Notes: generated from the letters alone by a model not told the origin. A DNA stretch of 64,000 bases from Candidatus Baltobacteraceae bacterium (GCA_036488875.1 DASXGW010000012.1:248001-312000), one strand, 5' to 3'. Positions 5,500-64,000 are shown, counted from the stretch's first letter. Translations and numbers: made by a program.

Positions 5500-5540
5500 G
5501 CTGTGAGGGTATGGGATAGGCCCCAATCGCGCACAAGAGA

Positions 5541-5568
5541 CGAAAAAAGCCCAAATTAATGGGCCAGA
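5541..5568 (-). terminator. Rho-independent terminator beside the second att copy
   Basis: The minus-strand GGGCC..TTAATTTGGGC hairpin followed by a T run is nearly identical to that at 1334-1356. It lies immediately downstream of the tRNA 3'-end copy. Confidence 0.6.
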
Positions 5569-5570
5569 TG

Positions 5571-5598
5571 TGGTAGCGCCAACGGGAATCGAACCCGT
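5571..5598. repeat. Attachment-site copy: 28-bp duplicate of the tRNA-Glu 3' end
   Basis: An exact 28-base match to 20770-20797 and 1362-1389. It divides the accessory region into a left segment (1390-5570) and a right segment (5599-20769), as expected for tandem or successive integrations at the same tRNA. Confidence 0.75.
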
Positions 5599-6015
5599 CC
5601 CGCTCCATGCTAGGTAGTGATCTTTAGACTTGTTGCAGCCGATCCTCCTTACGCACTCTCGAATCGCAGCGACACATAGGGGCAACCAGACCCATTTGGA
5701 CACATGTAGTTTGTGCCCATTTCGTGCCCATGGTAGCGTCGTGGCGCGGGTCTACAAGCGGTGTGGAGTGATTCCGAAGAAGCCTGACCGGGAACCGCGG
5801 CGTCGGAAACGGCGTAGCTGCAACTCCTAAAGGCGCCCGGAAGAGTGGTCCGCAACTGGAATATGCTAACCGCACAGAAATAATGGCGGGTGAAGTCCGA
5901 CGTAGACCAGTTGAGCCGGTCGAGTTCCACCCGTCGAGTCGACGCTCATTGCCCCTTGACGCGTCTCGTGAAACTTTCTTGGGAACGGCTCACTTGAACC
6001 CGGTCATTGACTATG
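5599..6015. other. Gene-free stretch with paired GTGCCCA repeats
   Basis: No convincing gene. GTGCCCA occurs at 5713-5719 and 5724-5730 with 11-base periodicity. The same pair with the same spacing stands next to the intact tRNA at 20706-20723. Such pairs beside att cores are typical of tyrosine-recombinase arm sites. No integrase is encoded nearby. Confidence 0.4.
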
Positions 6016-6033
6016 CTACGCTAAAGTGCGTAG
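6016..6033. promoter_or_regulatory. Inverted-repeat operator at the XRE gene start
   Basis: CTACGC-TAAAGT-GCGTAG is a perfect 6-6-6 inverted repeat covering the probable start of the XRE gene, next to a TATGCT -10-like box. A longer version of the same palindrome lies at 6438-6457, before the next gene. The pair suggests a regulator that controls both itself and its neighbour. Confidence 0.6.
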
Positions 6034-6374
6034 TGGGCAGTGCTAGGAATAAGAAGCCGACCTTTGGTCAGGCTGTCATCGCGTTGCGCCGGGAGCAAGG
6101 ACTCAATCAGCGGGAGCTTGCCGCGCGCATACAGAGAGAGGACGGCGCGGGTACCATTTCGCCTCAGTATCTTAGCGACATCGAACACGACCGGCGTAGC
6201 CCCTCCAGCGACCACATGATGGAAGAAATTGCGCGTGCCCTCCAGGCAGATACGGCCTTCTTAAGTTTTCTTGCGGGCCAACTGCCCGCTGAGCTGAGGG
6301 ACATTCAGCTGGATCCTATGAGGCTACGAGCGGCGATCGCGGCCTTTCAAAAAGCCGCAAGAGTTAGACCGTAG
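6033..6374 (+). CDS. XRE-family transcriptional regulator
   Basis: A Cro/C1-type helix-turn-helix runs through FGQAVIALRREQGLNQRELAARIQ...ISPQYLSDIEHDRRSPSSD, followed by MMEEIARALQADTAFLSFLAGQLP. The frame stays open upstream to 5883. That part is not protein-like and overlaps the putative promoter, so GTG 6033 (113 residues) is preferred; translation could be leaderless. The palindromes at 6016-6033 and 6438-6457 are its likely binding sites. Confidence 0.7.
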   Translation: MGSARNKKPTFGQAVIALRREQGLNQRELAARIQREDGAGTISPQYLSDIEHDRRSPSSDHMMEEIARALQADTAFLSFLAGQLPAELRDIQLDPMRLRAAIAAFQKAARVRP

Positions 6375-6437
6375 TTCCCCGGGGACGATCCTGCGGCCGG
6401 CTTGACGGCTAGGTTTCGACCGGTTATGCTGTACGCA

Positions 6438-6457
6438 ACTACGCTGATGTGCGTAGT
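6438..6457. promoter_or_regulatory. Inverted-repeat operator upstream of the 69-aa gene
   Basis: ACTACGC-TGATGT-GCGTAGT is a perfect 7-6-7 inverted repeat. It shares its arms and spacing with 6016-6033 and again follows a TATGCT box. It lies 40 bases upstream of the next start codon. Confidence 0.6.
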
Positions 6458-6497
6458 CAAATTCCCAACTTCGACTTCGGCCAGCTTGGAGTGAGCA

Positions 6498-6707
6498 ATG
6501 CAAAAGGGTGATGGACTCGATGGCCGCGCGCGAGACGACAGCGGCCGTACGAGAGCTAAAAATGGAACAACGCGAGTTGATACCTTGCGGAAAACCTATG
6601 GCGACGACTTCGCCGACGAAGTTAGGGGTGATATGAAGCTCGACACATTGCTCGATCGCACCGGAGCCTCTTCCCTGACCGACTACCTCAGGAGATCTAA
6701 ACGATGA
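6498..6707 (+). CDS. Small protein of unknown function (69 aa)
   Basis: ATG 6498 follows a GGAG site. The N-terminal third is charged and probably disordered. The C-terminal part, TLRKTYGDDFADEVRGDMKLDTLLDRTGASSLTDYLRR, is compact and resembles small conserved proteins seen in many bacterial accessory regions. The gene sits under the second operator of the XRE regulator and overlaps the following micro-gene by four bases (ATGA), so the two are probably translationally coupled. Confidence 0.65.
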   Translation: MQKGDGLDGRARDDSGRTRAKNGTTRVDTLRKTYGDDFADEVRGDMKLDTLLDRTGASSLTDYLRRSKR

Positions 6708-6847
6708 AAGCTCAACATGTTCTCGGCGTCGTTGCTAGCGTCGCCATCGCGGCAGTACTCGTGGAAACTTTCTACCAACATCCGACTTATGGTAACGGCA
6801 TCCAGGCAGCATACGCCGTAGCCAAGGCTGCTCTGGCGATCGGGTAG
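6704..6847 (+). CDS. Small single-pass membrane protein (47 aa)
   Basis: Starts at an ATGA overlap with the upstream gene, with GGAG 8-11 bases before it. The 47 residues begin MKAQHVLGVVASVAIAAVLV, a single hydrophobic segment. A short tail (ETFYQHPTYGNGIQAAYAVAKAALAIG) follows. Tight coupling to the 69-aa gene and the operator upstream suggest a small regulated unit, perhaps toxin-like. No family was recognised. Confidence 0.5.
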   Translation: MKAQHVLGVVASVAIAAVLVETFYQHPTYGNGIQAAYAVAKAALAIG

Positions 6848-6918
6848 TCGCCGAGTTGGCAGTCGTCGGGACTCGCTCTTGTCATTTTAGACGCTGCCAG
6901 CATCGCTAGAGGTATCAC

Positions 6919-8301
6919 TTGACCAAGTCCAACGATCATTGGGTTCCCCAATCGTATTTGCGCCGATGGACGACACTCCCGACCAATCGGCTCATTGCTT
7001 TGTGGCGCCAGGGCAAAATCGAACACACATCGCCGTGTTCGACGAAACGCGTACTGTCGGAGGACCACCTTTACACCATTTACGGGGAAGACGGGAGCCT
7101 CGTCTTACACGGTGAGACGAAGGTCTTCCAGGATATCGACAATGACGCTTCCGAGGCGCTCCGCTGGCTGGCTGATCGTGACTGGCGCGAGATGCCGGAT
7201 GCGACCGCTGAACCCTTTTACCGCTTTATTCATACGTTGGCTCCTCGCAGCCAACGGATGCGCGATGACTTCCTGAAGAAAGACGAGCGCATGCAGGCGG
7301 ACGTTATTGGTGAACTGCGTCGCCTCGGGGTTCCGAACGCTGAAGTCGTTGGACGGATGTCCGCCGGATCGGCCCGCGATCGCGCAGTCATGCGAATGTT
7401 GATGATCGCTAAGTTTGACGACTCTTGGCGCAAATTCTTTAACGGGATACCGTCATATGTGTACGACATCTCGGCGTACGATGCGGAGTTTTTTACCTCG
7501 GACTACCCGCTCTCGAGCACGCCGGCGATTGACGCACCGGGCGCAGTCCATGTCTTTCCCGTGTCACCGAGTCGTTGCTGGGTCGCCTCACATGACCCAG
7601 CCGCGGTTGAGAGGTTATGTGGGATGCCTCCTGCCATCTTCACTTCGGTTGTGAACCTGCGGACACTGGCAGGTGCGCATAGAGCCATTGCTCGCGACAA
7701 ACGATACCGCGAGCAAATCTTCAAATATCTTGGATGCGATGTGAACCCTGAATATCTCAAGGAAGCGTTGAGGGGCGCCTTCGCCGGAAGCGTTCGAACT
7801 GGTGTTGGCCCTGACGTCCCCGCCGAATGGCGCCATGAGGATCCTGATCCCTCAGGCTACAGGACACGCAAGGAAGCGTTTTGTGCCGGCATGGATGGCG
7901 TGTTATGGACCCAGGCGACAAAGGAGCCGGTCCTGCATACGGTCGGGCCGTGTGAGGCGCTCATATGGACTGTTCGCGATTGGTCGCTTCAGGTATCCAG
8001 TTATCGCGAAGCATACCAGCTTGGTAGGGGGCTCAGCTACATCTTCTTTCAGCTCGATAGATGGGGGCAATCGAAAGACGTTGGAGAGGAGATGCTCAAG
8101 CGTTTACGCCACGAGGCTGTGCGATCGGTAACACAACAGCGACGGACCGGGCAAAACGCGGTCTACGATCTTGATACACTACTTCGAACCTTCGCCGAAA
8201 TTACTCAGGTTTCGCTTAGCCAGATTTATCCGAACATCGAAGATCACGCGCGCGAGGTGTGGCTGTACGTTAATCGAGGTTTTCCTTTAGTATCCGCATA
8301 A
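6919..8301 (+). CDS. DUF4238 family protein
   Basis: A 460-residue protein whose N-terminus, NDHWVPQSYLRRWT, is the signature of DUF4238 (HxVPxxYLRxF). The family is widespread in accessory regions, and a nuclease or defence-linked role has been suggested but not shown. Further family-like segments are STKRVLSEDHLYTIYGEDG, FFTSDYPLSSTP and FPVSPSRCWV. The start is TTG 6919, seven bases after an AGAGG ribosome site; no ATG suits the conserved N-terminus. It follows the XRE-controlled pair in the same direction. Confidence 0.75.
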   Translation: MTKSNDHWVPQSYLRRWTTLPTNRLIALWRQGKIEHTSPCSTKRVLSEDHLYTIYGEDGSLVLHGETKVFQDIDNDASEALRWLADRDWREMPDATAEPFYRFIHTLAPRSQRMRDDFLKKDERMQADVIGELRRLGVPNAEVVGRMSAGSARDRAVMRMLMIAKFDDSWRKFFNGIPSYVYDISAYDAEFFTSDYPLSSTPAIDAPGAVHVFPVSPSRCWVASHDPAAVERLCGMPPAIFTSVVNLRTLAGAHRAIARDKRYREQIFKYLGCDVNPEYLKEALRGAFAGSVRTGVGPDVPAEWRHEDPDPSGYRTRKEAFCAGMDGVLWTQATKEPVLHTVGPCEALIWTVRDWSLQVSSYREAYQLGRGLSYIFFQLDRWGQSKDVGEEMLKRLRHEAVRSVTQQRRTGQNAVYDLDTLLRTFAEITQVSLSQIYPNIEDHAREVWLYVNRGFPLVSA

Positions 8302-8319
8302 GCGCTTGATAGCGACAAG

Positions 8320-9648
8320 TCATAGGTCGCGCCAGCGCACTCGCACGTCGCGTATCTCGAAGACCGTTCCACAACCCCCTCCACCATAGGCTTTCGGGCA
8401 ATGGCTGCCACCTTCGGCGGTGGTTCCATAGAGTATTCCATTGCTCGCGATGACCCCGCGCACGGGTTGCTCGCCATCCCTGCCTCGAAAGCTATGAAGT
8501 ATCAAAGGCTTGCCGGTTAGCGAACCTGCCGCAAACTCAAATACCGTTCCGCACCCGCCGGGACAGCGCCGACTGCTTATCGGTCCTCCAAATTCGGTCG
8601 TTCCGAAAACGTCCCCGTTTGCGTTCACGATGACGCCGTCGGGGGAGCAGCCCTCCGAAGACGTAAAATTATGAAGAACGCGATAGGATTGCCGATGACC
8701 GGCGGTGATCTCGAACAGTAAGCCGCAAGATGATACTACCGTGACGCCGTACAAGGCGCCGCTTCTGCCCAGCGTCAAACCGTCCCAGTCCGAACCTTCG
8801 GCGGCCGTAAAGCGATGGAGGACGCGCTCTTCATAACCAGAGTTCGTGCGATGCAACTCGTATGCGATCCCGCAGCCCGTGCCTTTACATCCGTGGTTGC
8901 CGCCCGCCATCGTCGTACCAAAGACATTGCCCAACGAATCAACGGCTAGGGTCCCCGAAGGCCAATAGCCATCGCGTCCTCCAGCAAACGCGTAGAGGAC
9001 GGCCGCCGTGTACCCTGTCGACGTCGGCGTGAGCTTGAAGACCGTTCCAAAGCCGCCGGGTCCTCCTTCGACGGTTGCACCGTAGATTGCACCATCCGGC
9101 TCGACGATCGGGGCGGACCGCGGCGCACATCCGTCGCCTCCGTGAAACGCGTACAGCGTTTTCGTTACGTACTGTGCGCCGGCCGGAACGATCGCGAAGA
9201 CCGTTCCGCAGCCGTTTGGCCACGTAAAGGACGTGGTCCCGTACAGCACGCCTCTATGCAGCGAAAGCCCCGCCGGCTCGACGCCGTCACTAGCTTGGCG
9301 AAATCGATGAATAACCTCTTCGCCATATGCTGTTCCGGAACGTGTGAGCTTAAATACCGTGCCGCACCCGCGAAGGTCCGTCGCCGCGCAGGCGCCGTCG
9401 CCCCCACGCTGCGTAATCCCAAAGATGTTACCATCGGCGTCGGCGACGAGAGAAGTCGGCTCTTCGCCATCGTGGCCTCGGAATCGAAATAGTGTCGCAA
9501 ACCTCGGTGAAGGGCTTCCCGCATATTGATTAGCACTCGCGCTATCGTTGCGCGTACCGATAGGAGGCACGGTGGCTGGCCCGCCACAGGCGACGAGGGC
9601 GACCAAGAGAGCAAAGAGCGGGACTCGTCGGTTTACGATTTTCGGCAC
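8320..9648 (-). CDS. GloVer-repeat (TIGR03803-type) beta-propeller lipoprotein
   Basis: The protein is built of about eight repeats with the hallmark GTVFKL or GTVFEI strand followed by a LYxFxG segment, and loops of the type YGTTxxGG. This matches the GloVer choice-of-anchor tandem repeat family. The N-terminus has a hydrophobic stretch FALLVALVACGG with a lipobox. An earlier ATG at 9729 lies inside a long hairpin (9713-9749) and would put 40 residues before the signal, so GTG 9648 (442 residues) is preferred. Function unknown; probably anchored to the envelope. Confidence 0.8.
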   Translation of the reverse strand: MPKIVNRRVPLFALLVALVACGGPATVPPIGTRNDSASANQYAGSPSPRFATLFRFRGHDGEEPTSLVADADGNIFGITQRGGDGACAATDLRGCGTVFKLTRSGTAYGEEVIHRFRQASDGVEPAGLSLHRGVLYGTTSFTWPNGCGTVFAIVPAGAQYVTKTLYAFHGGDGCAPRSAPIVEPDGAIYGATVEGGPGGFGTVFKLTPTSTGYTAAVLYAFAGGRDGYWPSGTLAVDSLGNVFGTTMAGGNHGCKGTGCGIAYELHRTNSGYEERVLHRFTAAEGSDWDGLTLGRSGALYGVTVVSSCGLLFEITAGHRQSYRVLHNFTSSEGCSPDGVIVNANGDVFGTTEFGGPISSRRCPGGCGTVFEFAAGSLTGKPLILHSFRGRDGEQPVRGVIASNGILYGTTAEGGSHCPKAYGGGGCGTVFEIRDVRVRWRDL

Positions 9649-9712
9649 ACAGAGCTCGGCTGAAGCACCAACGCGATTCGACGTTGGGTCAGTTCGATTC
9701 AAGGAGCGCGAG

Positions 9713-9749
9713 AGCATCCGCTCCCGCATTACACGCGGGAACGGATGCT
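9713..9749. terminator. Long inverted repeat between two lipoprotein genes
   Basis: The 15-base arms AGCATCCGCTCCCGC and GCGGGAACGGATGCT pair with one mismatch around a 7-base loop. The hairpin lies just beyond the end of the minus-strand gene 9758-11524 and is probably its terminator, although no T run follows. Confidence 0.5.
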
Positions 9750-9757
9750 TCCCGGCT

Positions 9758-11524
9758 CTACATAGTACCCTGCTTCACGGTTACTTGTATCGCGGTAATG
9801 CCGTAGCCGTGGAACGTCACAGTGCAGTTAGCAGGAAATGGCCCCTTGGTCGTTCCGCCGAGAATCACGTAGGCGCTCGGTCCGTTCATATTGCCGTCGA
9901 GCCAGCCGTAGAGCTCGAGGGAATTGCCGCACGCGTTACCGATCGACACGGTGAACGGTCCCGTGTACCCTGCCTCATACAAGTGAATGCTGGGATTGTG
10001 CTCCTGAACGACGTGCGACCCATTCCACCTCTCGCATCCGTAATCGTTGACCGACAACTTGGTCTGATCGCCGAAAGAGATGTCAGGATCGACGTCAGCC
10101 GACGTCATGCCGGGGATGTCGGGCTGATCGGCATTTGTGCAATTGAAGCTGGTAAGAGTGTACCCCGCTTTGGGATAGGTGATCTCCGAACCCGGTCCCG
10201 GAGTCGGCCAAACGTCGAACGTACCAGGCGTCGGAGTTGGCGTCGGAGTCGGTACGGGAGTCGGCGTCGGCGTTGGCCTCGGTGTGGGCGTCGGAGTCGG
10301 TACAGGCGTGGGGCTTGGCGTCGGCGACGGTGTTGGCGGCGTCGGGATCGACGCATGCACTAAGGCCTTGGCGGCGACGTCCAAAAACCAGGCGGTACCG
10401 TCAGATGCGGTGGTCATACCCCATGACGGCGTATTCGGGCTGCGCCCGTAGGTAAGTTCCTCGGAGGTTCCACCATTGGTCGCAAATGCGAGCTGCGCGT
10501 TCGTTATCCAAAGCCCAGCGCTTCCGCCGGCGATGGCGGTACCACAACAATATCCGGAGTCCATTGAAAGGTTGGCGACTGTGCCAGACATGGACAGTTG
10601 CAAAAGGTGCGTGCCAGATGTGACCCAGACGTATCCGCCGCTCGAGGTGATGCTAACGGCCGAACCATCCGTCGTCGGCAGCGCGTAAGTAGCGTACGAT
10701 CCTGACGTCGTCATACGTACCACCTGATTCGCGCCCGGCGCGACGCACCACAAATCGCCGTCAGGGCCAAGGGTAATGTCTGTGCACAAATCCGGTACCG
10801 TAATAGCGGTGGCGCTCAGCGTACTGACGTTGACTTCAACTATTGCGGGAGACCCGCTATAGGAACCGGTGAGCCACACGAAGCCGTTCGCGGTAGCTAT
10901 TCCGCCTGACCCCGAAAGGCCGGTTAACTGATACAGATTATAAGTGCCGCCCGCATTTGACATTTGCAACAGCAAATTGCCACCGGCCGGCGACCAGAGC
11001 GCGGCGTCTGGGCCGAGGGCCACTCCGATTGGACTCGGATAGTACGTGGATCCATTGAAAATCTTGGAGTGAAGGGAAAATTGCTGGAACGTGTCGGTTC
11101 CGGGAAAGAACTCGCTCATGATTCCCGATCCGTCCGGTGCGCCACTCTGCTCCGCAAACCAGAGGTTGGAGTTTCCGTCAAAAGCGAGGCCCTGGAGACC
11201 GCTGCCGGTAGGAACGCTGAATGCAGACGAAATGACCGACGTCACGTTCGGAGCAAACCCTTTTCGACGCTGGTGCGAACGAGTTGGAACGATCTTGCGG
11301 TGATCTATGCGCTCGAGTTTTATATGCTTTCGCCTGGCGTGACTGGTCTTAAGCGGCATCTGTCTCTGCGCAAGTTGTGGCTGTTGTTGCTGCGTCTGCG
11401 TCGCCGGCAACATCTGTGCTGTAGGAAGCGAAGACGGACTGCTGCTACATGCGCCGGCTCCTATAATTGAAGCAGCTGCTAAGCATATCGACAATGCACG
11501 CAGCGGCGATCGTTTACTAAACAT
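9758..11524 (-). CDS. Virginiamycin-B-lyase-like propeller lipoprotein with Pro-Thr linker
   Basis: From ATG 11524 the protein (588 residues) begins MFSKRSPLRALSICLAAASI with lipobox GAGAC. A Gln- and basic-rich spacer follows, then Vgb-type repeats (FDGNSNLWFAEQS, LGPDGDLWCV, SGGYVWVTSG, SDGTAWFLD). A low-complexity linker of PTPTP repeats (coding bases about 10225-10345) leads to a C-terminal domain of about 130 residues with several Cys. The start at 11626 would put 34 residues before the signal peptide. True Vgb enzymes cleave streptogramins, but here the propeller is part of a larger envelope protein and catalysis is not implied. Confidence 0.75.
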   Translation of the reverse strand: MFSKRSPLRALSICLAAASIIGAGACSSSPSSLPTAQMLPATQTQQQQPQLAQRQMPLKTSHARRKHIKLERIDHRKIVPTRSHQRRKGFAPNVTSVISSAFSVPTGSGLQGLAFDGNSNLWFAEQSGAPDGSGIMSEFFPGTDTFQQFSLHSKIFNGSTYYPSPIGVALGPDAALWSPAGGNLLLQMSNAGGTYNLYQLTGLSGSGGIATANGFVWLTGSYSGSPAIVEVNVSTLSATAITVPDLCTDITLGPDGDLWCVAPGANQVVRMTTSGSYATYALPTTDGSAVSITSSGGYVWVTSGTHLLQLSMSGTVANLSMDSGYCCGTAIAGGSAGLWITNAQLAFATNGGTSEELTYGRSPNTPSWGMTTASDGTAWFLDVAAKALVHASIPTPPTPSPTPSPTPVPTPTPTPRPTPTPTPVPTPTPTPTPGTFDVWPTPGPGSEITYPKAGYTLTSFNCTNADQPDIPGMTSADVDPDISFGDQTKLSVNDYGCERWNGSHVVQEHNPSIHLYEAGYTGPFTVSIGNACGNSLELYGWLDGNMNGPSAYVILGGTTKGPFPANCTVTFHGYGITAIQVTVKQGTM

Positions 11525-11727
11525 AAAAAAGCGAGCGCCGTTGTAGCGCAATGTTGCCTCCCCCGGCCGAATGAAGCGAGCGGCCGGCACAAGCTGAATG
11601 ATAGCGGACGCAAACGGCAGGGTCAAGTGACTTTTTTCCTACGAAGTCGACTACCGAAGTTCATACTAAGAGGGAAGCGCCTAATGCGGTCGCGCGCCCT
11701 TTGAGTGAACGGACGCTCTCTCGTGTA

Positions 11728-12684
11728 CTAGAAACTAACCGGAATCATCCAAATAATCCCATTGGAGATATCAGACACGTAGAGATCGCCGCGTTTGTTA
11801 ACGATGACGCCATAAGGACGTTTGAAGCCAGATCCGATTTGTCTCAGCACTTGACCGCCAGGGGACACCTCCACCACCGCACTATTGCCCGTATCTGCGA
11901 CGTAGAAGTTACAGTTCGTCGTGCAACGCGGATCTGACGCCACTCCGCGGGGGTAAGAAAATCCCGAGAACCGAGCCACGGCCGGCAAACAGATCAGCCC
12001 AGAAGGGCAGGGTGACATTGCAGGGACTACCTCGAACACGTTGGGTTGGACGAACCCGTTGCTGGTGCGCTCGGGTATAGCACTTGTGCCGTACACATGC
12101 CCAATCGCATCCACGGAAACCGCGGCGTCAGCCTCGGCTGTTGTCACGATAATAATTGTACGGGGCTTCGAGCCAGCAATGATCTCAGCTATTCTATTGT
12201 TGCCGTAGTCTGCGACATAGACGTCGCCCTTATTGTCGACGGCGAGGCCCATGGGAGAAGAAAATCCATGGCCAAACACACTTGAGGCGCCGTTCTTCTT
12301 GATTCGCCAAACTTGATTGCTGCCAGTATCCGAGACGTAAACGTTACCCATCGCGTCGACGGCAACGCCGGACGGTCGCTTAAGACCTCGAGCCACCGTC
12401 GAGATGGTTCCATGAGTTGCACCCGTGAACGGAGGAGCTATCTTCTCGACCGTCTGCTTGCGGCTGTCAGCAACGTAGACGTTCCCAGCAGAGTCGACTG
12501 CAATGCTCTCGGGATCCTTGAATCCAGAACCAATCTGGATCATGGACGCGCTCGACCGCGACGCCGGCTGCAGCATGTTAGGAATCTGAGCTTGGGAGAG
12601 GGGCGGAAGTTGCCCGGAGGCGCATGCCGATAGAAGTGCCAGGAGCCCAAGTGCGACCACTCGTCGAACAACTAACAAGCTCAC
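11728..12684 (-). CDS. NHL-repeat lipoprotein
   Basis: GTG 12684 lies six bases after a perfect GGAGG and gives MSLLVVRRVVALGLLALLSA with lipobox LSAC. The GTG at 12699 would overlap the Shine-Dalgarno site. The mature protein has NHL repeats of the form FKDPESIAVDSAGNVYVADS, RPSGVAVDAMGNVYVSDTGS and SPMGLAVDNKGDVYVADYGN, forming an approximately six-bladed propeller of about 300 residues. It probably acts at the outer face of a membrane; ligand unknown. It is the second same-strand propeller gene in a row. Confidence 0.8.
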   Translation of the reverse strand: MSLLVVRRVVALGLLALLSACASGQLPPLSQAQIPNMLQPASRSSASMIQIGSGFKDPESIAVDSAGNVYVADSRKQTVEKIAPPFTGATHGTISTVARGLKRPSGVAVDAMGNVYVSDTGSNQVWRIKKNGASSVFGHGFSSPMGLAVDNKGDVYVADYGNNRIAEIIAGSKPRTIIIVTTAEADAAVSVDAIGHVYGTSAIPERTSNGFVQPNVFEVVPAMSPCPSGLICLPAVARFSGFSYPRGVASDPRCTTNCNFYVADTGNSAVVEVSPGGQVLRQIGSGFKRPYGVIVNKRGDLYVSDISNGIIWMIPVSF

Positions 12685-56606: not shown

Positions 56607-57184
56607 AACTCGTTGCCGGATTAGGCAATCCCGGCAAAGAGTATGCAGCGACGCGCCACAACGCCGGCTACATGGCAGTCGACGAGGTGGCGCGACGATT
56701 CGGCATTACGCACTGGCGCAAAAAAGACAGCGCGGAGCAAGCCGCCGACATGGCGCGCGGCGTCGTTCTCGTCAAACCGACGTCGTACATGAATCTCTCC
56801 GGCACGCCGCTGCGCTTGATTTCGTCGTGGTATAAAACGCCGCCCGAGGACGTGCTGGTCGTCGTCGACGAGATGGATCTCCCATTTGGAAAGCTGCGCA
56901 TGCGGGCGTTCGGCGGCCACGGCGGCCATAACGGTCTTCGTTCGGTGATTGCGACGATCGGTGACCGGTTTCCGCGGCTGCGCATCGGCGTCGGCCGGCC
57001 AAAACACGAAAGCGGCGACAGCATCAACCACGTGCTGGGCACGTTCGACGCCGACGAGAAGCAACGGTGGCCGGCAATACTTTCGGCCGCCGCCGACGGT
57101 ATCGAGCGGTGGCTATCCGGAGATCTAGACGCCGCGATGCGCTTTATCAATAGTTGGGAAGAACTCCAGAAACCGAGCACTTGA
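56603..57184 (+). CDS. pth: Peptidyl-tRNA hydrolase with apparent ATA start
   Basis: 193 residues if read from ATA 56603: IKLVAGLGNPGKEYAATRHN is the conserved Pth start with the catalytic His and Asn. VLVKPTSYMNLSG, VVVDEMDLPFGKLRMR and GGHGGHNGLRSV follow. The first ATG (56672) would remove the GLGNPG motif and the catalytic His. No ATG, GTG or TTG occurs in frame for at least 60 bases upstream of the ATA. The ATA overlaps the rplY stop as ATAA, where ATGA would be usual. GGAAG lies seven bases before. It recycles peptidyl-tRNA and is essential in most bacteria. Confidence 0.9.
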   Translation: MKLVAGLGNPGKEYAATRHNAGYMAVDEVARRFGITHWRKKDSAEQAADMARGVVLVKPTSYMNLSGTPLRLISSWYKTPPEDVLVVVDEMDLPFGKLRMRAFGGHGGHNGLRSVIATIGDRFPRLRIGVGRPKHESGDSINHVLGTFDADEKQRWPAILSAAADGIERWLSGDLDAAMRFINSWEELQKPST

Positions 57185-57220
57185 CCAAAAGCACTGTGCC
57201 CGGCTGGTGGCCAGAGATGC

Positions 57221-57250
57221 CTTTCGCGAATCAAACGGCTGTCGCGAAAG
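57221..57250. terminator. Inverted repeat after the prs-rplY-pth operon
   Basis: CTTTCGCGA and TCGCGAAAG form a perfect 9-bp stem with a 12-base loop, 37 bases after the pth stop. No T run follows. It may end the operon and mark the left limit of the second accessory region. Confidence 0.45.
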
Positions 57251-57380
57251 CAGCGGTCCCGCAACGGGCAAAGCAAAAACCAAGCTCGCACGATTGTACC
57301 TCCTCCTTGCGAGCACCACTAGGATGTTGGCACGCCTCTACCCCGGGGGTACCGATGCCTTCCGATAGGGCCTAGCGCTG

Positions 57381-57408
57381 ATGCAGATTTGCATGCCTGT
57401 GTTAGAAT
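57381..57408 (+). promoter_or_regulatory. Palindrome and -10 box upstream of the antitoxin-Fic pair
   Basis: ATGCA-GATT-TGCAT at 57381-57394 is a perfect palindrome, followed by TAGAAT at 57403-57408. This is the likely promoter with an operator for autoregulation by the toxin-antitoxin pair. Confidence 0.4.
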
Positions 57409-57444
57409 CGCACAGTACCTTCCTAATTTCAGGAGAATCCGCAA

Positions 57445-57624
57445 ATGCTTGACCGCCGGCTCGTGGCTGCGGCGCTCGCCGAAACCCAGGATCTTCCCGA
57501 GTCCGATCGCGGACAGGATGTCGCATTTGCTCGGGCGGTTTCGTCTTCGCTTCGCCTGGAAGGGATTGACGTGTCGCCAGAGCAGGTACTCGAGGCAAGC
57601 AAGGCTATTCCTGATAGCCAGTGA
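57445..57624 (+). CDS. VbhA-like Fic antitoxin (59 aa)
   Basis: ATG 57445 follows GGAG. The protein contains AVSSSLRLEGIDVSPEQVLE, which includes SLRLEG, the S/TxxxE(G/N) inhibitory motif of class I Fic antitoxins. VbhA of Bartonella has the same arrangement (as I recall, SQRLEG within a helix, followed by a short Pro-containing turn). The Glu would block the ATP gamma-phosphate site of the Fic partner. The stop overlaps the Fic start as GTGA, so translation is coupled. Confidence 0.75.
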   Translation: MLDRRLVAAALAETQDLPESDRGQDVAFARAVSSSLRLEGIDVSPEQVLEASKAIPDSQ

Positions 57625-58244
57625 CCGTTGAGGATCCGGGCGCCTTCGGGGCCCTCACCGCTTCGCAGATTGAGCGCCTATCTGGCGCTCTTTTTCATCT
57701 TCACTCGAAATTGGTGAAAACCGTACGCACACCTGAGGATTGGTCTATTCCGTTCCTTTACGACGTTCACCGATCAATTTTTCGGGGCCTATTCCGCGAC
57801 GAAGCGGGCCGTGAACGTCGCGTTGAAGTCGTGCTACGCGACCTTCCAGTACCACCGGTTACGCAGATCCAATATCGGCTCCAAACGATCGTGCAGGCAA
57901 TCCGTGACCTCGTCACACGCGCCGGTACTCTTAGCGGCGCCGAGAAAATCAACGCAGTTTTTGCCGAAGCTGCTCGGATTCACGCGGATTGCATCTGCGT
58001 TCAGCCGTTCGTGGACGGCAACAAACGGTGGGCGCGAGTGATCCTGAGCGCGTTTCTTGCAGACTGCGGCTACTCTCCCGGAACGGAAATCCCCGAGGTC
58101 GATCATGACCGCTACATGGAGGGCATCAGCAAGTCGGTTAACGAGGCTCATCCGGAGCAGCTAGCGGCCCTACTACTCGCCGGCTGGGTCGCGCTGCGGC
58201 AGGCATACAGAGAAGCCACGCGTTCGGGCTCTGTGTCATATTGA
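57621..58244 (+). CDS. Fic-domain protein with altered active site
   Basis: 207 residues from GTG 57621. The Fic core is visible: FLYDVHRSIFRGLF, IQYRLQTIVQAIRDLV, FAEAARIHADCICVQPFVDGN and KRWARVILSAFL. The family motif HxFx(D/E)GNGRxxR reads QPFVDGNKRWAR (residues 128-139), so the catalytic His is Gln and the second Gly is Lys. Normal Fic proteins AMPylate or otherwise modify hydroxyl side chains of target proteins. Without His the activity may differ or be lost. It follows the VbhA-like gene and precedes a ubiquitin-like operon by 65 bases. Confidence 0.8.
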   Translation: MTVEDPGAFGALTASQIERLSGALFHLHSKLVKTVRTPEDWSIPFLYDVHRSIFRGLFRDEAGRERRVEVVLRDLPVPPVTQIQYRLQTIVQAIRDLVTRAGTLSGAEKINAVFAEAARIHADCICVQPFVDGNKRWARVILSAFLADCGYSPGTEIPEVDHDRYMEGISKSVNEAHPEQLAALLLAGWVALRQAYREATRSGSVSY

Positions 58245-58269
58245 CACAATCGTGAATTTTTGGCACACT
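58232..58269 (+). promoter_or_regulatory. Promoter/operator of the ubiquitin-like operon
   Basis: TGTGTCA-TAT-TGACACA (58232-58248) is a perfect 7-3-7 palindrome overlapping a TTGACA -35 (58241-58246). A 17-base spacer leads to CACACT (58264-58269). ATTGACACAAT is shared with the promoter at 61037-61065, so one regulator may control both. Confidence 0.6.
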
Positions 58270-58309
58270 CTCTTACGGACCCTTTTGCGGGTTAGTAAGG
58301 AGTTTGAAA

Positions 58310-58684
58310 GTGCAAGAAGAGCGCGAGGAGCTAATCCTAAAGGAAACGCTCACCGAGGAGTTCATCGTCGACGGCGCGGTCATCGCCGAGGAGACGGTGA
58401 ACGCGGAGATCGAGGTCGAGGTCCGGGAAGCGCCCGAGATTACGATCGTGCTTACCAGCGGTGCGGAGCACAACTTCGTTTACCATCCCAAGGAACAGGT
58501 CGCAAAGCTGACAGATCAGGCGGTGAAATATTTTGCCAGCCACGGGAAGCTCGACCCCTCGAAGCAATATGAGCTCATTTTCGATGGGAACAAGCTCCAA
58601 CCACGCCTGACGCTCGCGGAAGCTGGAGTCAAGCCTGATGACAAGCTGACGCTTTCGCCGTGCGAACGCCCGGTCGACGGATGA
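58310..58684 (+). CDS. Ubiquitin-like protein of a bacterial conjugation-type operon
   Basis: GTG 58310 lies seven bases after AGGAG and is preferred to TTG 58304. The 124 residues have an acidic N-terminal extension (about 40 residues) and a beta-grasp domain: ITIVLTSGAEHNFVYHPKEQ, VAKLTDQAVKYFASH, YELIFDGNKLQPRLTLAEAG and DDKLTLSP, the strand-helix-strand order of ubiquitin-like multi-ubiquitin (DUF2604-type) proteins. The sequence ends in Gly, as needed for E1 adenylation. It overlaps the next gene by ATGA. Confidence 0.75.
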   Translation: MQEEREELILKETLTEEFIVDGAVIAEETVNAEIEVEVREAPEITIVLTSGAEHNFVYHPKEQVAKLTDQAVKYFASHGKLDPSKQYELIFDGNKLQPRLTLAEAGVKPDDKLTLSPCERPVDG

Positions 58685-59130
58685 GACCCGCGGTCGCGCA
58701 GGCGATCGCAGAAGACGAAGTCCAAAACGCGATCGCCTCTGGCGTTTTTACTGGCGAGTTTCGGCTGCATGTTTGGACGTTCCCGATGCTTGTTATCGAC
58801 GTTGCCAGCGTAAGTCGGGAAATGCGGTTCCGGCTACGCGTCGATTTTACCGACTATGATGCGCAACCTGTTCAGTTACGTCTCGTGAATGAAGACCGCA
58901 TCGAGATTTTCGATCCGTTCCCGCTACGGAACGGACAACCGTTTCCAAATCATCAGCCGGCGCAGCTGCCGCAGTTCTTCTGCATTACTGGTACGCGTGA
59001 TTACTACACGCATCAAGGACACAATCCGCAGGCCGGCGGTCCCAGTTGGGAAACGCATCGACAAGCACATCCTGCCCGAGTTGTTCTGCATGAGGTGGCT
59101 CACAAGTTTGCATCAGGAGAGTGGTCGTAA
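58681..59130 (+). CDS. Putative metal-binding (CEHH-type) or E2-like protein
   Basis: 149 residues between the ubiquitin-like and JAB genes, overlapping both. A beta-rich N-terminal part (FRLHVWTFPMLVIDVASV, MRFRLRVDFTDYDAQPVQLR) is followed by PQFFCITGTRDYYTH, with Cys101, His111, His114, Glu124 and His126. This fits a predicted Cys-Glu-His-His metal-binding family described in bacterial ubiquitin-like operons. A degenerate E2 fold with Cys101 as acceptor is the alternative. No canonical E2 motif is present elsewhere in the operon. Confidence 0.5.
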   Translation: MRPAVAQAIAEDEVQNAIASGVFTGEFRLHVWTFPMLVIDVASVSREMRFRLRVDFTDYDAQPVQLRLVNEDRIEIFDPFPLRNGQPFPNHQPAQLPQFFCITGTRDYYTHQGHNPQAGGPSWETHRQAHPARVVLHEVAHKFASGEWS

Positions 59131-59603
59131 TGCTTAACGCCAGATATGTACTTCCCCAGGCTCTCGTCGCACGATCGTGGCGGTTTCTCGCTGATCGAGG
59201 CTCTCATGGACACGAAGGGATGTTGCTGTGGGCGGGGCGCGCAACGCGCGGCGCGGCAACGATTTCTCGCCTCGTTATCCCAGCCCAGACGGCCATACGG
59301 ACAGCCGCCGGCGTCTGCGTCGCGATGGAAATGGAAGCTCAACGGGCGATGCCCCAGTCCCTGCGCGCCGGCGAAGAATACTTCATTCGCGTTCATTCCC
59401 ATCCATGTAAGGCGTTTCATTCCGATGCGGATGATGCGAATCTGGTACTGTCGCATAACGGCGCGATCTCGATCGTGGTCCCAAACTTCTGCCACAATGT
59501 GCCGACGGATCTCACGGCGTGCGCCGTCTTTGAGTACCGAATCGGACATGGGTGGAGAGAGCTCGATCTTAAGGAGCGCGGCGCAAGGTTTACCATAGTA
59601 TGA
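59130..59603 (+). CDS. JAB/JAMM-family isopeptidase
   Basis: 157 residues from ATG 59130, which overlaps the previous stop (TAATG). The JAMM zinc site is visible: Glu29 in HEGMLLW, then VHSHPCKAFHSDADDAN with His89, His91, Ser98 and Asp101. The gap between the second His and Ser is one residue shorter than the canonical seven. It would deconjugate or process the ubiquitin-like protein. It overlaps the E1 gene by ATGA. Confidence 0.8.
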   Translation: MLNARYVLPQALVARSWRFLADRGSHGHEGMLLWAGRATRGAATISRLVIPAQTAIRTAAGVCVAMEMEAQRAMPQSLRAGEEYFIRVHSHPCKAFHSDADDANLVLSHNGAISIVVPNFCHNVPTDLTACAVFEYRIGHGWRELDLKERGARFTIV

Positions 59604-61036
59604 TCGACCCGAGATTAGAGATTTTTGGCGCAATCGACGATGCTCAAAAACGGGAAGTCCTGTCGCGATTGAGTAGCACGGCGGTCTCGATCGTCGCCGA
59701 TCCGTCGATCCCCCAGCGACGTGAGCTGATGATCGCCGTAACCCATGCCACGGATCTCCTGGCGCGACTCTTTGATCACGTGGTAATCGATATCGACTGT
59801 CCTTGGGCGGACGAGCAGAATCAAAAAGCTCAGAGCCTCCGGCCTCTCGGCAACGCGGAGCCAACGACGCGAGTGACTCTTGGCTTCGGCGATGTCCCGG
59901 CGGACATCTACGCGGGTTACAGCGCGACCGGCGCGGCCATTTCGGTACGTGCTCCGCTCTTGTGCGACGAAGGCATTCTTGCTGCGCTCCTCGCTGGTTC
60001 CGCGGCGGCAGCCGAAGTATTCAAGCTCGTTTTCGAGAGCTTCTTGCCGGAAATCGTTCGCGCGGACTACGTTATCCCGATGACGCTTGAGTCGGATCTC
60101 TGCCCATCTCAGGGCGGGATTGTGCTAGACGCGATCGTTGCCGGCGGAGGCTCCGTCGGATTCGGGGTTGTGGAGGCGCTGGCAGCGCTAGATATTGAGC
60201 TCCGTGGACGGGTCGATATCATCGACAACGGCGTCATCGAAGAACGCAATCTTTACAAGTACGGTCATCTTAGTAGGCAGACCGCACTTTCCGGAGCTTA
60301 CAAAGTCGCTATACTTGCGGATCGACTTCATACGGCTCACCCTGGACTTGAGGTTCACCCGCATCCCGTAACCATCGAAAACTACGAAGGTCGCGATGCC
60401 GCCCTCGCGATTGTTTCTATGGATAATGTTGCTGCACGTAGGGCGGCGCAGGAGCTCCTAACGCGGGACATCGTGAACATCGCCATTGACGGGACGGAGT
60501 TCGAGGTAGCGTCGCTCACCTTCCAACAAACGGGCTGCATCTATTGCTACTATCAAAACAATCGCGAAGAACAGGCGGACTACGCGGCGATTTCAGAACG
60601 ATTCGGCCTCGACGTGAACCGCACTGAGCATTTATTGACGACTAATGAGGGCCTAATCTCCTCCGATATAGAGGCCATCAGTCGTGCCAACATTCTTCGG
60701 CAGGACGATGTTTCGACATTTCTCAATCAGCCGCTTCGTTCACTTATTCAGCGCGCGGCCTACGCACAAGCAGTTATCCAAAGCCAGCATGGATCGATGC
60801 GTCTTGCGACTGCATTTGTTTCCTCCATGGCCGGAACGATGGGAGCGATCGAGGCGCTTAAGAGCAGTATCCCCACTCAAAGACGCCAGCGTCTATCCGC
60901 TGCCGTAGATATGCTTGGAATATTTCACGCTCTTTGTGAGCGAAAAAACGCGAAGAATCCCACATGTGCGATTTGCAATAGCACATATCGGCTTAACGAA
61001 TATCGACGGCTTTGGGGAGACGGCGGCTGTGCATGA
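59600..61036 (+). CDS. E1-like ThiF-family adenylyltransferase
   Basis: 478 residues. An N-terminal domain of about 170 residues, which is not a Rossmann fold by eye, precedes the ThiF/E1 core. The core has nucleotide loop AIVAGGGSVGFGVVEAL (179-194), DIIDNGVIEERNLYKYGHLS with the conserved Asn-Leu, and IVSMDNVAARRAAQELL. Four cysteines in two pairs (TGCIYC at 313-316 and PTCAIC near the C-terminus) match the zinc site of ThiF/MoeB-type enzymes. It should adenylate the C-terminal Gly of the ubiquitin-like protein. It is the last gene of the coupled operon. Confidence 0.85.
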   Translation: MIDPRLEIFGAIDDAQKREVLSRLSSTAVSIVADPSIPQRRELMIAVTHATDLLARLFDHVVIDIDCPWADEQNQKAQSLRPLGNAEPTTRVTLGFGDVPADIYAGYSATGAAISVRAPLLCDEGILAALLAGSAAAAEVFKLVFESFLPEIVRADYVIPMTLESDLCPSQGGIVLDAIVAGGGSVGFGVVEALAALDIELRGRVDIIDNGVIEERNLYKYGHLSRQTALSGAYKVAILADRLHTAHPGLEVHPHPVTIENYEGRDAALAIVSMDNVAARRAAQELLTRDIVNIAIDGTEFEVASLTFQQTGCIYCYYQNNREEQADYAAISERFGLDVNRTEHLLTTNEGLISSDIEAISRANILRQDDVSTFLNQPLRSLIQRAAYAQAVIQSQHGSMRLATAFVSSMAGTMGAIEALKSSIPTQRRQRLSAAVDMLGIFHALCERKNAKNPTCAICNSTYRLNEYRRLWGDGGCA

Positions 61037-61065
61037 TTGACACAATTTGCCAAAAGTTTTATACT
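61037..61065 (+). promoter_or_regulatory. Strong sigma70-type promoter of the XRE-ImmA pair
   Basis: TTGACA (61037-61042), a 17-base spacer and TATACT (61060-61065) make a near-consensus promoter. The -35 region repeats ATTGACACAAT found at 58240-58250. The predicted start point is about 61072. Confidence 0.8.
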
Positions 61066-61072
61066 TTGGTTG

Positions 61073-61408
61073 GTGTTAAATAGAGATGAATTGTACAAAA
61101 AGCTAGCGGACGGCATTCGAAAGCATCGAGAAACAGAAGATTTAAGCCAAGAAGATCTTGCTAGCCGCGCAGGTTTGAGCAGAGCACAACTTGCCAATAT
61201 CGAAAAGCAGCGCCAGCGTCCACCGCTTGATGTCCTTTACAAGCTCGCCGGCGCGCTTAATGTAGACGTTACCGAACTCCTGCCTCGCCAGGATGAGGTC
61301 ATAGCAGTCGCCGACCAGGTTACCATGGACTACGCTGGCGATACGGTTAACGTGACTCCCGCGGCGGCCAGCTATCTCAGGGGCCTCGGGAACTCGCAGA
61401 ATCGCTGA
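61073..61408 (+). CDS. XRE-family regulator paired with ImmA/IrrE peptidase
   Basis: 111 residues from GTG 61073, at or next to the predicted transcript start, so translation may be leaderless; TTG 61091 is the alternative. The helix-turn-helix is ELYKKLADGIRKHRETEDLS, then QEDLASRAGLSRAQLANIEK and a VLYKLAGALNVDVTELLPR end. It probably represses the promoters at 61037 and 58232. The stop overlaps the peptidase start (TGATG), the usual ImmR-ImmA type pairing in which the peptidase relieves repression. Confidence 0.8.
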   Translation: MLNRDELYKKLADGIRKHRETEDLSQEDLASRAGLSRAQLANIEKQRQRPPLDVLYKLAGALNVDVTELLPRQDEVIAVADQVTMDYAGDTVNVTPAAASYLRGLGNSQNR

Positions 61409-61911
61409 TGGGCAGCGCGGTAGAAGCTGCCGTTCGTACGGCTCAGCGAATCCTCAAGCAGAATCCGCAGCGCCTTCCAATCGATGTTATCGCGATTGCG
61501 AAAGCGCACGGGTTTAGTGTCGATTTCGAGCCGTTCGAAGATACGTTATCTGGGATGTTCGTTCGAGAGCATCGAGTAATTGCAGTCAATAAGGCGCATC
61601 CACGGGTTCGACAGCGGTTCACAATCGCCCACGAACTTGGGCACGCATTGCTTCACGCCAAGTCCTCACCCTTGTTCGTCGATGATACGCAGATTTTTCA
61701 CCGCGAACAGGGGCGCAATTCCCTTCGAGAAGTTCAAGCCAACCGGTTTGCGGCAGAGCTCTTGATGCCCGAACAAGACGTGCGCCGCGTCGCCGGTAAC
61801 CACGTAGAGTTATATAATGAGACGCTGATCAGCCAGCTAGCGCGCCACTTCGATGTCAGTAGCCAGGCATTCTCGGCGCGCCTAGCGGCTCTAAACCTAG
61901 CGGTAATTTAG
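61408..61911 (+). CDS. ImmA/IrrE-family metallo-endopeptidase
   Basis: 167 residues with the zinc motif FTIAHELGHALLH and a downstream EVQANRFAAELLMP that supplies the third ligand. IDVIAIAKAHGFSVDFEPFE at the N-terminus is typical of the family. Such peptidases cleave their partner XRE repressor on a damage or infection cue. The gene is coupled to the XRE gene and converges on the 511-aa gene with a four-base overlap. Confidence 0.88.
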   Translation: MGSAVEAAVRTAQRILKQNPQRLPIDVIAIAKAHGFSVDFEPFEDTLSGMFVREHRVIAVNKAHPRVRQRFTIAHELGHALLHAKSSPLFVDDTQIFHREQGRNSLREVQANRFAAELLMPEQDVRRVAGNHVELYNETLISQLARHFDVSSQAFSARLAALNLAVI

Positions 61912-63443
61912 CCCCTTCTCAGGCGAACGTTCTCACCGGCCATGAATCGCGTAAGCTTCGATCCCCAAATCTTTACGACTGAATCTTTTTCCTCAGCGAT
62001 CAGCCTGCCAATCGCATCGCGAGTGCTTTCGCTATACCATACGATTCGGAAAAGAGGAAAGGAGTATTTAATATGCGCTTCGTCTCCAAAATCGGTAGCA
62101 TCGCCGAGCACGTCGAACAATAGCTGACCACTCATCCTTAGCGAAGCTCGCCAGAAAAAACGTGGTTGCTGTGCGCCAAGTATATCCGCCAAGTCTAATG
62201 GTGGCCGCTCGCGAGTCGAGCGTAGTTCTTTTTTGTAGAGATTCGTAGTAGTCAGCCGAATGTTCCACTCTAGTTCTTCACCTGGGAATCCCTGCTTGAA
62301 GACGCCCATGATCCGTTGGATCCATGCATGCATCTCAAGAAAGCGAAGGCGCACCTTTTCGTAGAGAGGTACGAGCAACACGCTCGGCACAAGGCGTACA
62401 GCCGAACCGTTGCGTTTCCATGATCCCTCTAAGATAAAGGGCACCGACTTCGCTTCGTCAGTGTCTTTGGGCGCTCGGATGAACATTCGAGCAAACGGGC
62501 CCACTTGGTCGTCATGACCGTAGAATTCGTTGATGCGGCTGGCGTACGAGTGGACGCCACTGACTGGCGGCTCGCGGAAATCGGATTCTTCTTTCGGAGT
62601 GGAATAACCGACGAGTGTGATTGCGTGGGATCCGACGCCGACAATGTCGCAGATGAGGATTGCGGGAAGCCCTGCCTCAAGATAGCCGTAGATTATTGAT
62701 GCCAGCGGTGTAGCGCCGCTGATCTGAACGACTTCCGTCTCCAAATGTGCGGCACGAATCGCCTCGCACATCTGCAAGACGTCCAAGCCGTGTGATGGCA
62801 CTGCACGCGTTGCGGTGCGTACGACATTTGCCATCTCTGTAATCATCGACGGACGTGGCCTGCGGGTTCCATCAAAGAGCCGACTGGTCATGTGGAAAGC
62901 TGACCAGAGCGCTACGGTTGCACACGCCGCGGTGACTCGGTCTTGCTCCTGAAAAGCAAGGCTTTTTACTGGCAGCTCGATGCCGGCGAGCACCGGGCGG
63001 TACAGTCTAATTACAGGATAGTGACGTCGATCAATGCTATCGTAAGTACGGAGAATCGTTCGTCCGATAATTGCGTCGGGCAAAGGTCGAGCCACGACAA
63101 AGCCAAGATAACTTTCTTGCAGAACTTTTATCGCGGAAGCATTTTTGTTACTAATGGCGGCCTTAAACAGCTCCTCGTCAAACGACGCGGAGAAAAAATG
63201 GAGTCGTTTGCAGAGACGCGGGTAGTTCTCAAAGCAGCTATAATAGTAGCTCGCATAATCGGATAGATAGTCGCCGTCGGTATAGTCGGTTTCCACGATG
63301 ATGCTACGAGCGCCAATGGTCGTAAGATAGCCGAATAAGTAGCGCGTCCGCTCGCGCACCTCTACCTCGTCGGGGGTGATGAACCCATTTGCGAGAGCCG
63401 CGGCAAGTTGCGCTTCGCTAAAGACCAGGTAGTCGAAAGCCAA
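61908..63443 (-). CDS. Papain-like (C39-type) cysteine peptidase-like protein
   Basis: 511 residues. An N-terminal part with Tyr/Asp-rich segments (ARSIIVETDYTDGDYLSDYA) precedes QESYLGFVVARPLP, then a papain-like core: FQEQDRVTAACATVALWSAF with Gln165/167 and Cys174, and VGSHAITLVGYS with His273. A further 230-residue C-terminal region has no recognised fold. The Gln-Cys-His order fits C39/bacteriocin-processing or transglutaminase-type enzymes. It stands opposite the ubiquitin-like operon and may process or deconjugate proteins, but that is inference. Confidence 0.6.
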   Translation of the reverse strand: MAFDYLVFSEAQLAAALANGFITPDEVEVRERTRYLFGYLTTIGARSIIVETDYTDGDYLSDYASYYYSCFENYPRLCKRLHFFSASFDEELFKAAISNKNASAIKVLQESYLGFVVARPLPDAIIGRTILRTYDSIDRRHYPVIRLYRPVLAGIELPVKSLAFQEQDRVTAACATVALWSAFHMTSRLFDGTRRPRPSMITEMANVVRTATRAVPSHGLDVLQMCEAIRAAHLETEVVQISGATPLASIIYGYLEAGLPAILICDIVGVGSHAITLVGYSTPKEESDFREPPVSGVHSYASRINEFYGHDDQVGPFARMFIRAPKDTDEAKSVPFILEGSWKRNGSAVRLVPSVLLVPLYEKVRLRFLEMHAWIQRIMGVFKQGFPGEELEWNIRLTTTNLYKKELRSTRERPPLDLADILGAQQPRFFWRASLRMSGQLLFDVLGDATDFGDEAHIKYSFPLFRIVWYSESTRDAIGRLIAEEKDSVVKIWGSKLTRFMAGENVRLRRG

Positions 63444-63452
63444 GAGTTTTAG

Positions 63453-63638
63453 CTAAACGCTGACTTGCTTCTTGAGCGTATCGGCGGAAACACGGTGCTC
63501 GAGCATAAACTCAGTAACCTGCTGATCGAGCTGCTGACCGATCTGCTCCGGATCCGAATCCTGAATGCCAGCCTTTAGCTGTTCGAAAGTCATGGCCTTT
63601 CCCTGATCGACGCCGGGTACGTTCCGGTTTTGGTTCAC
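63453..63638 (-). CDS. Small protein (61 aa) upstream of the peptidase-like gene
   Basis: GTG 63638 lies eight bases after a perfect GGAGG and overlaps the stop of the gene upstream (GTGA). The alternative ATG 63593 would give 46 residues. The product has MTFEQLKAGIQDSDPEQIGQ and LDQQVTEFMLEHRVSADTLK, a mainly helical protein with no signal or double-Gly motif. It ends nine bases before the 511-aa gene, so the three genes form one operon. Function unknown. Confidence 0.6.
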   Translation of the reverse strand: MNQNRNVPGVDQGKAMTFEQLKAGIQDSDPEQIGQQLDQQVTEFMLEHRVSADTLKKQVSV

Positions 63639-63811
63639 CCAGAAAGCCTCCGGTATAAACGACGGTACGCCGCGCGGGCATCCTTGCTCATCTCCGCCGC
63701 GATCGTTGGAGCGCCTTTCCGGCAAGCGGTCTGAAAACCCTGGATTGCCGCATCAAAATCGACCCGATTACTGGCAGCCGTGCCTCTGCGCGCTCTCCGC
63801 GTGAGGACCAT
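63635..63811 (-). CDS. Small basic protein (58 aa)
   Basis: ATG 63811 opens a 58-residue frame: an Arg-rich start, then VDFDAAIQGFQTACRKGAPT and EMSKDARAAYRRLYRRLSG. The stop overlaps the next GTG. No clear ribosome site is seen, so the start is uncertain. The helical Lys/Arg-rich C-terminus and coupling to the next gene support translation. Family not recognised. Confidence 0.45.
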   Translation of the reverse strand: MVLTRRARRGTAASNRVDFDAAIQGFQTACRKGAPTIAAEMSKDARAAYRRLYRRLSG

Positions 63812-63863
63812 CCATCGGCATCGTGTTAACGGTATTGTGGCAGAAATGGGCGCTCCTTCCTCA

Positions 63864-64000
63864 TCAATTCATATAGATAACTAATCCATCGCTCCTTGCC
63901 TTCAGCAGCACGTATGGCTGCATTAGCGGATTTGCGAAACGGAATCGTAGGCTCCTTGGTGTCCCCTTGCGCTCAAGAATACAGCCGCGCTTATCGCTTG
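63864..64000 (-). CDS. C-terminal end of an unidentified protein (partial)
   Basis: Open from the window edge for 44 codons to TGA: CILERKGTPRSLRFRFANPL then MQPYVLLKARSDGLVIYMN. The RFRFxNPLMQPYVLL pattern is like the winged-helix tail of some stand-alone P-loop ATPases. Too little is visible to name it. Confidence 0.4.
   Translation of the reverse strand, partial: SDKRGCILERKGTPRSLRFRFANPLMQPYVLLKARSDGLVIYMN

Follow-up and report, generated by a model that had tools for sequence, protein, structure and literature searches.

A probable Bil-type ubiquitin-like conjugation operon from a diverged clade without the E1 catalytic cysteine

In ubiquitin-like cascades the cysteine thioester formed on the E1 enzyme is a step treated as fixed. 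A stretch of DNA of 64,000 nucleotides from a Candidatus Baltobacteraceae bacterium (GCA_036488875.1, DASXGW010000012.1:248001-312000), hereafter termed the window, carries a compact operon of ubiquitin-like genes in which the E1-like protein has a tyrosine where this cysteine would be expected. To which known system does such an operon belong, and how might its tag be passed on?

The operon and its relation to BilABCD

Four open reading frames on the plus strand encode a ubiquitin-like protein (Ubl) of 124 residues (58310-58684; positions are those of the window), an E2-like protein of 149 residues (58681-59130), a JAB/JAMM peptidase of 157 residues (59130-59603) and an E1-like protein of 478 residues (59600-61036). 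The first frame starts with GTG at 58310, with a Shine–Dalgarno-like AGGAG about 8 nt on its 5' side. The overlaps, of four bases between the Ubl and E2 genes (ATGA), one base between the E2 and JAB genes (TAATG) and four bases between the JAB and E1 genes (ATGA), confirm the one to four bases described in an earlier, sequence-only reading of the locus. Overlapping starts and stops of this kind are typical of a translationally coupled operon, as this one is predicted to be.

The sequence-only reading recognised a Ubl, a JAB, an E1 and a CEHH-like protein with Cys101 and noted a kinship with Bil operons, all of which stands. It went on to state that the set could not be matched to a characterised system, and here we differ, since the gene order, the sequences and the predicted structures are those of BilABCD, the bacterial ISG15-like system (PDB 8tyx, 8tyy, 8tyz and 8tz0). 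The two share the order Ubl, CEHH-like E2, JAMM deubiquitinase and E1 with two adenylation domains, together with the catalytic cysteine and histidine of the E2 and the folds of the E1 and E2. We consider it very probable that the locus is a Bil-type BilA-B-C-D conjugation operon, situated in a mobile defence island and representing a diverged clade that lacks the E1 catalytic cysteine. The kind of operon is already known; the unusual part is that the absence of this cysteine is conserved across a clade.

The same four genes occur in about 95 loci from many phyla, gathered from plasmid searches and from a scan of genomes in which a BilC alignment served as the query, a recurrence that places the gene set far beyond chance. 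The alignment used in the scan was a narrow one, a broader first alignment having proved too diverse. The loci derive from Pseudomonadota, Bacteroidota, Actinomycetota, Acidobacteriota, Bacillota and Armatimonadota, from haloarchaeal plasmids and from one viral contig, and they include that of plasmid NGR234 (L013), from which operon type 6c was predicted in 2006 (Iyer et al., 2006; PMC1779556). No match was returned by single-sequence scans of genome contigs with the E1 or of viral contigs with the JAB, by tblastn of the window E1 against phages or by a search of viral sequences with an alignment of the tyrosine-bearing E1s discussed below; the same holds for tblastn of the actinobacterial members of that group against plasmids.

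Several variants were seen among related loci. Two haloarchaeal plasmids (L017 and L023; Halomarina and Natrinema) carry Bil-like four-gene operons with E1s that are without a Cys domain, and a viral contig (L025, from IMG/VR) encodes Ubl, JAB and E1 proteins, with no recognised E2 and no E1 Cys domain. At three further loci, from an Acetobacteraceae MAG (L042:3167-4357), Hymenobacter profundi (L043:4556-5950) and a Bacteroidetes MAG (L085:1526-3232), the Ubl and E2 profiles match the same open frame, and these may be Ubl-E2 fusion proteins.

The BilA-like Ubl consists of an acidic N-terminal extension of 43 residues followed by one beta-grasp domain (residues 44-116). This fold, on which the sequence-only reading had made its interpretation depend, holds, with a match to Pfam Rad60-SLD (7.1e-7) scoring 29.4 bits against a cut-off of 23.8. 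The protein terminates as ...RPVDG-stop with a bare glycine, Gly124. Because this residue is already exposed in the translated product, trimming would be unnecessary. The ISG15-like BilA has two ubiquitin-like domains, in which the window Ubl, with its single domain and bare glycine end, differs from it; the number of domains is nevertheless not discriminating, because many other Bil-type loci have single-domain Ubls.

The sequence-only reading found no canonical E2 and put forward the 149-residue protein with Cys101 as the only candidate. The choice was right, and the protein is in fact recognisable as a BilB-like E2. PADLOC assigns it to BilB (6.8e-7), the profile of its family matches BilB of 8tyz at 1.1e-58, and its AlphaFold model (pLDDT 77) has BilB as the top PDB match (Foldseek probability 1.00, E 2.7e-4; VIA Z 11.1), with eukaryotic UBC E2s next (VIA Z about 7.7). 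By itself the sequence gives a weak match to BilB (E 0.14), but one that coincides exactly with the catalytic residues (FFCITGTRDYYTHQGH.. with FLCMAGVREYHDNPAH..). BilB, the E2 of BilABCD, is a CEHH protein with Cys138, Glu144, His146 and His151 (review, PMC11354881), and therefore the CEHH protein of the window corresponds to the E2 of a characterised system. A metal-binding role, the older reading of CEHH proteins, was dropped given that BilB shows such a protein to be an E2. Cys101 is the sole invariant column among 36 E2 sequences. Of the four CEHH residues, Cys101 and His114 (+13) are present in the window protein with the spacing of BilB, while Asp107 (+6) stands for glutamate and Tyr109 (+8) for histidine, giving C-D-Y-H.

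The third product, a putative deconjugase, resembles BilC of 8tyx (1.3e-21) and is assigned to BilC by PADLOC (1.9e-12). It displays the complete motif E29 ... H89-S-H-P-x5-S98-x2-D101, including H91, and the JAMM columns are invariant in the JAB alignment.

The BilD-like E1 retains the whole BilD architecture of an inactive and an active adenylation domain and a helical Cys domain. Its sequence matches BilD of 8tyz at 1.8e-18 (about 23% identity). The model (pLDDT 86) matches BilD in Foldseek (1.8e-27) and, in VIA, with Z 44.3 over 452 residues of 8tz0_B, while UBA1/6/7 give Z about 25; the E1 fold, which the sequence-only reading had also put up for testing, therefore holds. The residues seen in the E1 are G-x-G-x-x-G, D209, K235, D275 and the zinc-binding pairs C313/C316 and C456/C459, with K235, D275 and an arginine, R56, conserved. 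The Ubl glycine, the JAMM residues of the JAB and the adenylation loop and two Cys pairs of the E1 had all been identified correctly from the sequence.

Type II CBASS also brings E1, E2 and JAB activities together in defence. There, however, Cap2 is an E1-E2 fusion accompanied by a CD-NTase, whereas the E1 and E2 of the window are separate. Neither a CD-NTase domain nor Cap2 turned up in the set of neighbouring genes analysed, and the assignment to Cap2 was dropped.

A tyrosine at the position of the catalytic cysteine

Cys417 of BilD is the catalytic residue (review, PMC11354881). The window E1 has Tyr388 in its place, a point that the sequence-only reading overlooked, and for this reason we assign the operon to a diverged Bil-type clade and not to canonical Bil. 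The lowest confidence of the E1 model (pLDDT under 50) is at residues 388-394, the key loop. Two profile-profile alignments set the tyrosine opposite the cysteine; in a third it is one residue off, a shift due to the helix before it, which differs by one residue from clade to clade.

We aligned the window E1 with 48 dereplicated relatives (49 E1s). Among the E1s that retain a Cys domain, the Cys417 position is cysteine in all but seven, which have tyrosine: the window E1 and those of six Actinomycetota (Rhodococcus, Kribbella, Egibacteraceae, two Acidimicrobiales/-aceae and one unclassified). A sequencing oddity was dropped as the source of Tyr388, which is common to seven genomes. The surrounding motif is [AVTL]-Y-A-[EQ] in all seven proteins, and the only conserved cysteines in them are those of the zinc pairs. 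They form one clade, with support of 99/98 in a tree of the E1 and 99/96 in a tree of the E2 and deubiquitinase without the E1; because the clade recurs in both trees, it appears that the cysteine was replaced once and the change maintained, and not that one gene decayed. The E2 cysteine, the histidine at +13 and the JAMM residues are kept in all seven members, and the Ubl C-terminus follows the pattern P-x(0-1)-[VT]-D-G; six Ubls were recovered, and in five of them the final glycine is bare. The clade has seven known members within the reach of these searches, and spans Actinomycetota and the phylum of the window, taken to be Vulcanimicrobiota/Eremiobacterota.

A tyrosine at this site might simply mean that the E1 has decayed, in the window copy or in the clade, and that the operon is inactive. 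The window E1 has Lys220 in place of the usual arginine of NLxR, an ATP-contacting residue equivalent to MoeB Arg73 that is present in nearly all other E1s including the rest of the tyrosine clade. It also lies on a long branch (2.05 in the E1 tree). These two features make a partial decay of the window copy possible, and the two altered CEHH residues point the same way. Against this, the four frames are intact and tightly overlapping, the catalytic residues of the E2 and deubiquitinase and the adenylation aspartate and lysine are kept, and the tyrosine is maintained throughout a deep clade whose operons are intact. Decay is possible for the window copy and unlikely for the clade; on the whole we regard a decayed E1 in an inactive operon as quite improbable.

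Routes for transfer of the tag

With a conserved tyrosine in place of the catalytic cysteine, the tag would have to be handed on by an unusual route. According to the mechanism that we propose, BilD would bind ATP and the Ubl and adenylate Gly124 of BilA, after which the acyl group would pass to Cys101 of the E2, either straight from the adenylate or by way of an ester on Tyr388. The charged E2 would then attach the Ubl to its targets at lysine residues, the targets being phage virion proteins if the analogy with Bil holds, and BilC would take the tag off.

The first of these routes, on which the E1 would only adenylate, Cys101 would attack the adenylate directly and Tyr388 would be structural or assist docking of the E2, appears plausible to us, if short of probable. 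MoeB/ThiF-type E1s act as adenylation modules and supply a precedent. The standing of Cys101 as the one invariant E2 residue is in keeping with direct attack, as is the persistence of operons at four loci (L020, L022, L023 and L025) where the E1 is without a Cys domain. Direct transfer nevertheless leaves the clade-wide conservation of the tyrosine and of the helical domain unexplained.

That conservation would be accounted for were Tyr388 the true nucleophile, carrying the Ubl as an aryl ester (Ubl~O-Tyr388) on the E1 before its transfer to Cys101. We put this forward tentatively. The tyrosine and the alanine that follows it are invariant in all seven E1s, in a clade of two phyla in which the Cys domain is retained; an aromatic residue may, on the other hand, be conserved for packing. 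Aryl esters are activated acyl donors, which makes transfer from such an ester to a thiol chemically reasonable. The Bub pathway reportedly uses an oxyester intermediate.

Bub offers a parallel of another kind, in that one of the solved Bub complexes (BubCD; PDB 9ea4, 9ea5 and 9eav) has a Y370F E1 (9eav). We located Y370 by way of a Bub-like JAB-E1 protein from a related genome (L119). This residue immediately precedes the re-entry helix, within the crossover segment (GYITG...APSVIT), and is phenylalanine in 9eav and tyrosine in 9ea4. Since this residue was mutated for structure determination, a tyrosine would appear to matter in another lineage of bacterial E1s, and a functional tyrosine in the window E1 thus has a counterpart, though at another alignment position. 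Both E1s have the tyrosine in the crossover segment but the distances to the re-entry helix differ, that of Bub being about 13, not 20, residues before the re-entry serine or threonine, and this detracts from the case for a nucleophile. The systems differ further: the E1 is fused to the JAB in the BubCD structure whereas the two are separate genes in the window, and the fold match of the window E1 is 1.8e-27 to BilD against 4e-7 to Bub. A search for DUF6527 in the genome of the window gave no match. In three related genomes that do have DUF6527 (L116, L117 and L118) we observed an E1-like protein in which the segment 'DDYA.NIQVADLNALNAALAVIRWKK' is conserved, the tyrosine again just before the re-entry helix.

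Extended to the whole clade, an ester route would amount to a mixed oxyester-to-thioester relay, the E1 handing its Ubl~O-Tyr ester to the E2 cysteine, a proposal that we hold to be doubtful but worth stating. Otherwise complete E1-E2-deubiquitinase operons with a consistent tyrosine and an E2 cysteine constitute a natural test of whether the thioester step can be skipped or another nucleophile can serve. The clade may form a link between Bil of the thioester type and Bub as well.

The island and the probable control of the operon

The operon lies inside an insertion of about 9.3 kb between pth and the next conserved gene, of which 57165-64000 falls in the window; the insertion reaches about 66492 in window numbering. 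A genome of the same genus (G001) is without it, window position 57164 being joined directly to 66493 there (L132:12955/12962), with flanks of 77% and 76% identity by blastn. The GC content is 0.53-0.59 within the island against about 0.65 outside. Besides the operon the island encodes a Fic-family protein, upstream, an HTH/M78 pair, an nSTAND1/AAA ATPase, a zinc-ribbon protein and a protein of 511 residues that fits no family.

The HTH/M78 pair follows the operon on the same strand. The first gene (61073-61408, start approximate) encodes a CapH-like HTH repressor of 111 residues (Pfam HTH_3, 1.4e-14; PADLOC capH, 1.5e-14) and the second (61408-61911) a CapP-like M78/ImmA metalloprotease with an intact HELGH (HExxH) motif (Pfam Peptidase_M78, 1e-24; PADLOC capP, 4.1e-33). 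In related systems ssDNA activates CapP, which then cleaves CapH (PMC13373217). An HTH repressor followed by an M78 protease, with a promoter element common to the adjacent operon, is the arrangement of CapH+CapP, under which, or under CapW, Bub operons are often found; the window pair differs in that it lies downstream of the operon and has a promoter to itself, and downstream genes of this type are a further difference from BilABCD.

The predicted promoter/operator region of the Ubl operon (58233-58269, plus strand) has a palindrome, GTGTCA-TAT-TGACAC (58233-58247), that overlaps a -35-like TTGACA (58241), and a weak -10 element, CACACT (58264-58269). The HTH gene has a predicted sigma-70-type promoter, TTGACA-17-TATACT (61037-61065, plus strand; 11 of 12 consensus matches), which begins right after the E1 stop codon. 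Within the 64 kb the decamer TTGACACAAT has only two copies, at 58241 and 61037, one in each promoter. Its expected number is 0.09, and two copies were reached in 1 of 100 shuffles; the sharing is only moderately improbable because the element contains the common -35 hexamer. The 18-bp site that contains the palindrome is absent from the HTH promoter even at three mismatches, and only the TTGACACAAT half recurs. The arrangement of the sites is consistent with one repressor acting on both promoters.

HTH/M78 genes also adjoin other Bil-type operons (L018, L019, L022, L094, L099, L101 and L102), and within the tyrosine clade they are near two operons (L031 and L046), with an HTH gene at a third (L076). 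By analogy with the related systems, the HTH repressor would silence its own gene and the Ubl operon, and the M78 protease, once DNA damage or ssDNA had activated it, would cleave the repressor and release transcription. Control of the operon by DNA damage is probable on this comparison and would extend Bil-type systems with such control to a little-studied phylum.

What would the operon be for? Phage defence, shown for other Bil clades, is the function that we infer here. Regulatory tagging of stress or host proteins is the rival in purpose, though not in chemistry: CapH/CapP-type control answers DNA damage in general, and protection against phages was not shown for the related Bub operons (PMC13373217). 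The neighbouring Fic and nSTAND1/AAA ATPase genes and other defence-like genes of the island, and the defence against phages by Bil homologues, weigh against a regulatory role, which we think rather unlikely.

The Fic-family protein (57621-58244, plus strand; Pfam Fic, 4.7e-12; PADLOC PDC-S04, 9e-13) has the motif QPFVDGNKRWAR, in which glutamine replaces the catalytic histidine. The 511-residue protein (61908-63443, minus strand) has no Pfam, NCBIfam or PADLOC match and no relatives in the fetched loci; inspection by eye suggests a possible papain/C39-like pattern (ACATVALW ... GSHAITLVGY). Near its gene and on the same strand, an AAA_16/nSTAND1 ATPase (63864-65072 in window numbering, running past the window end; L123) possibly forms a second defence unit in the island. 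The G001 genome has its own stretch of about 8 kb (L132; G001:C3 about 3917-12253) a few hundred bases away, placed against 67202-67228 in window numbering, and the comparison suggests an insertion hotspot after pth.
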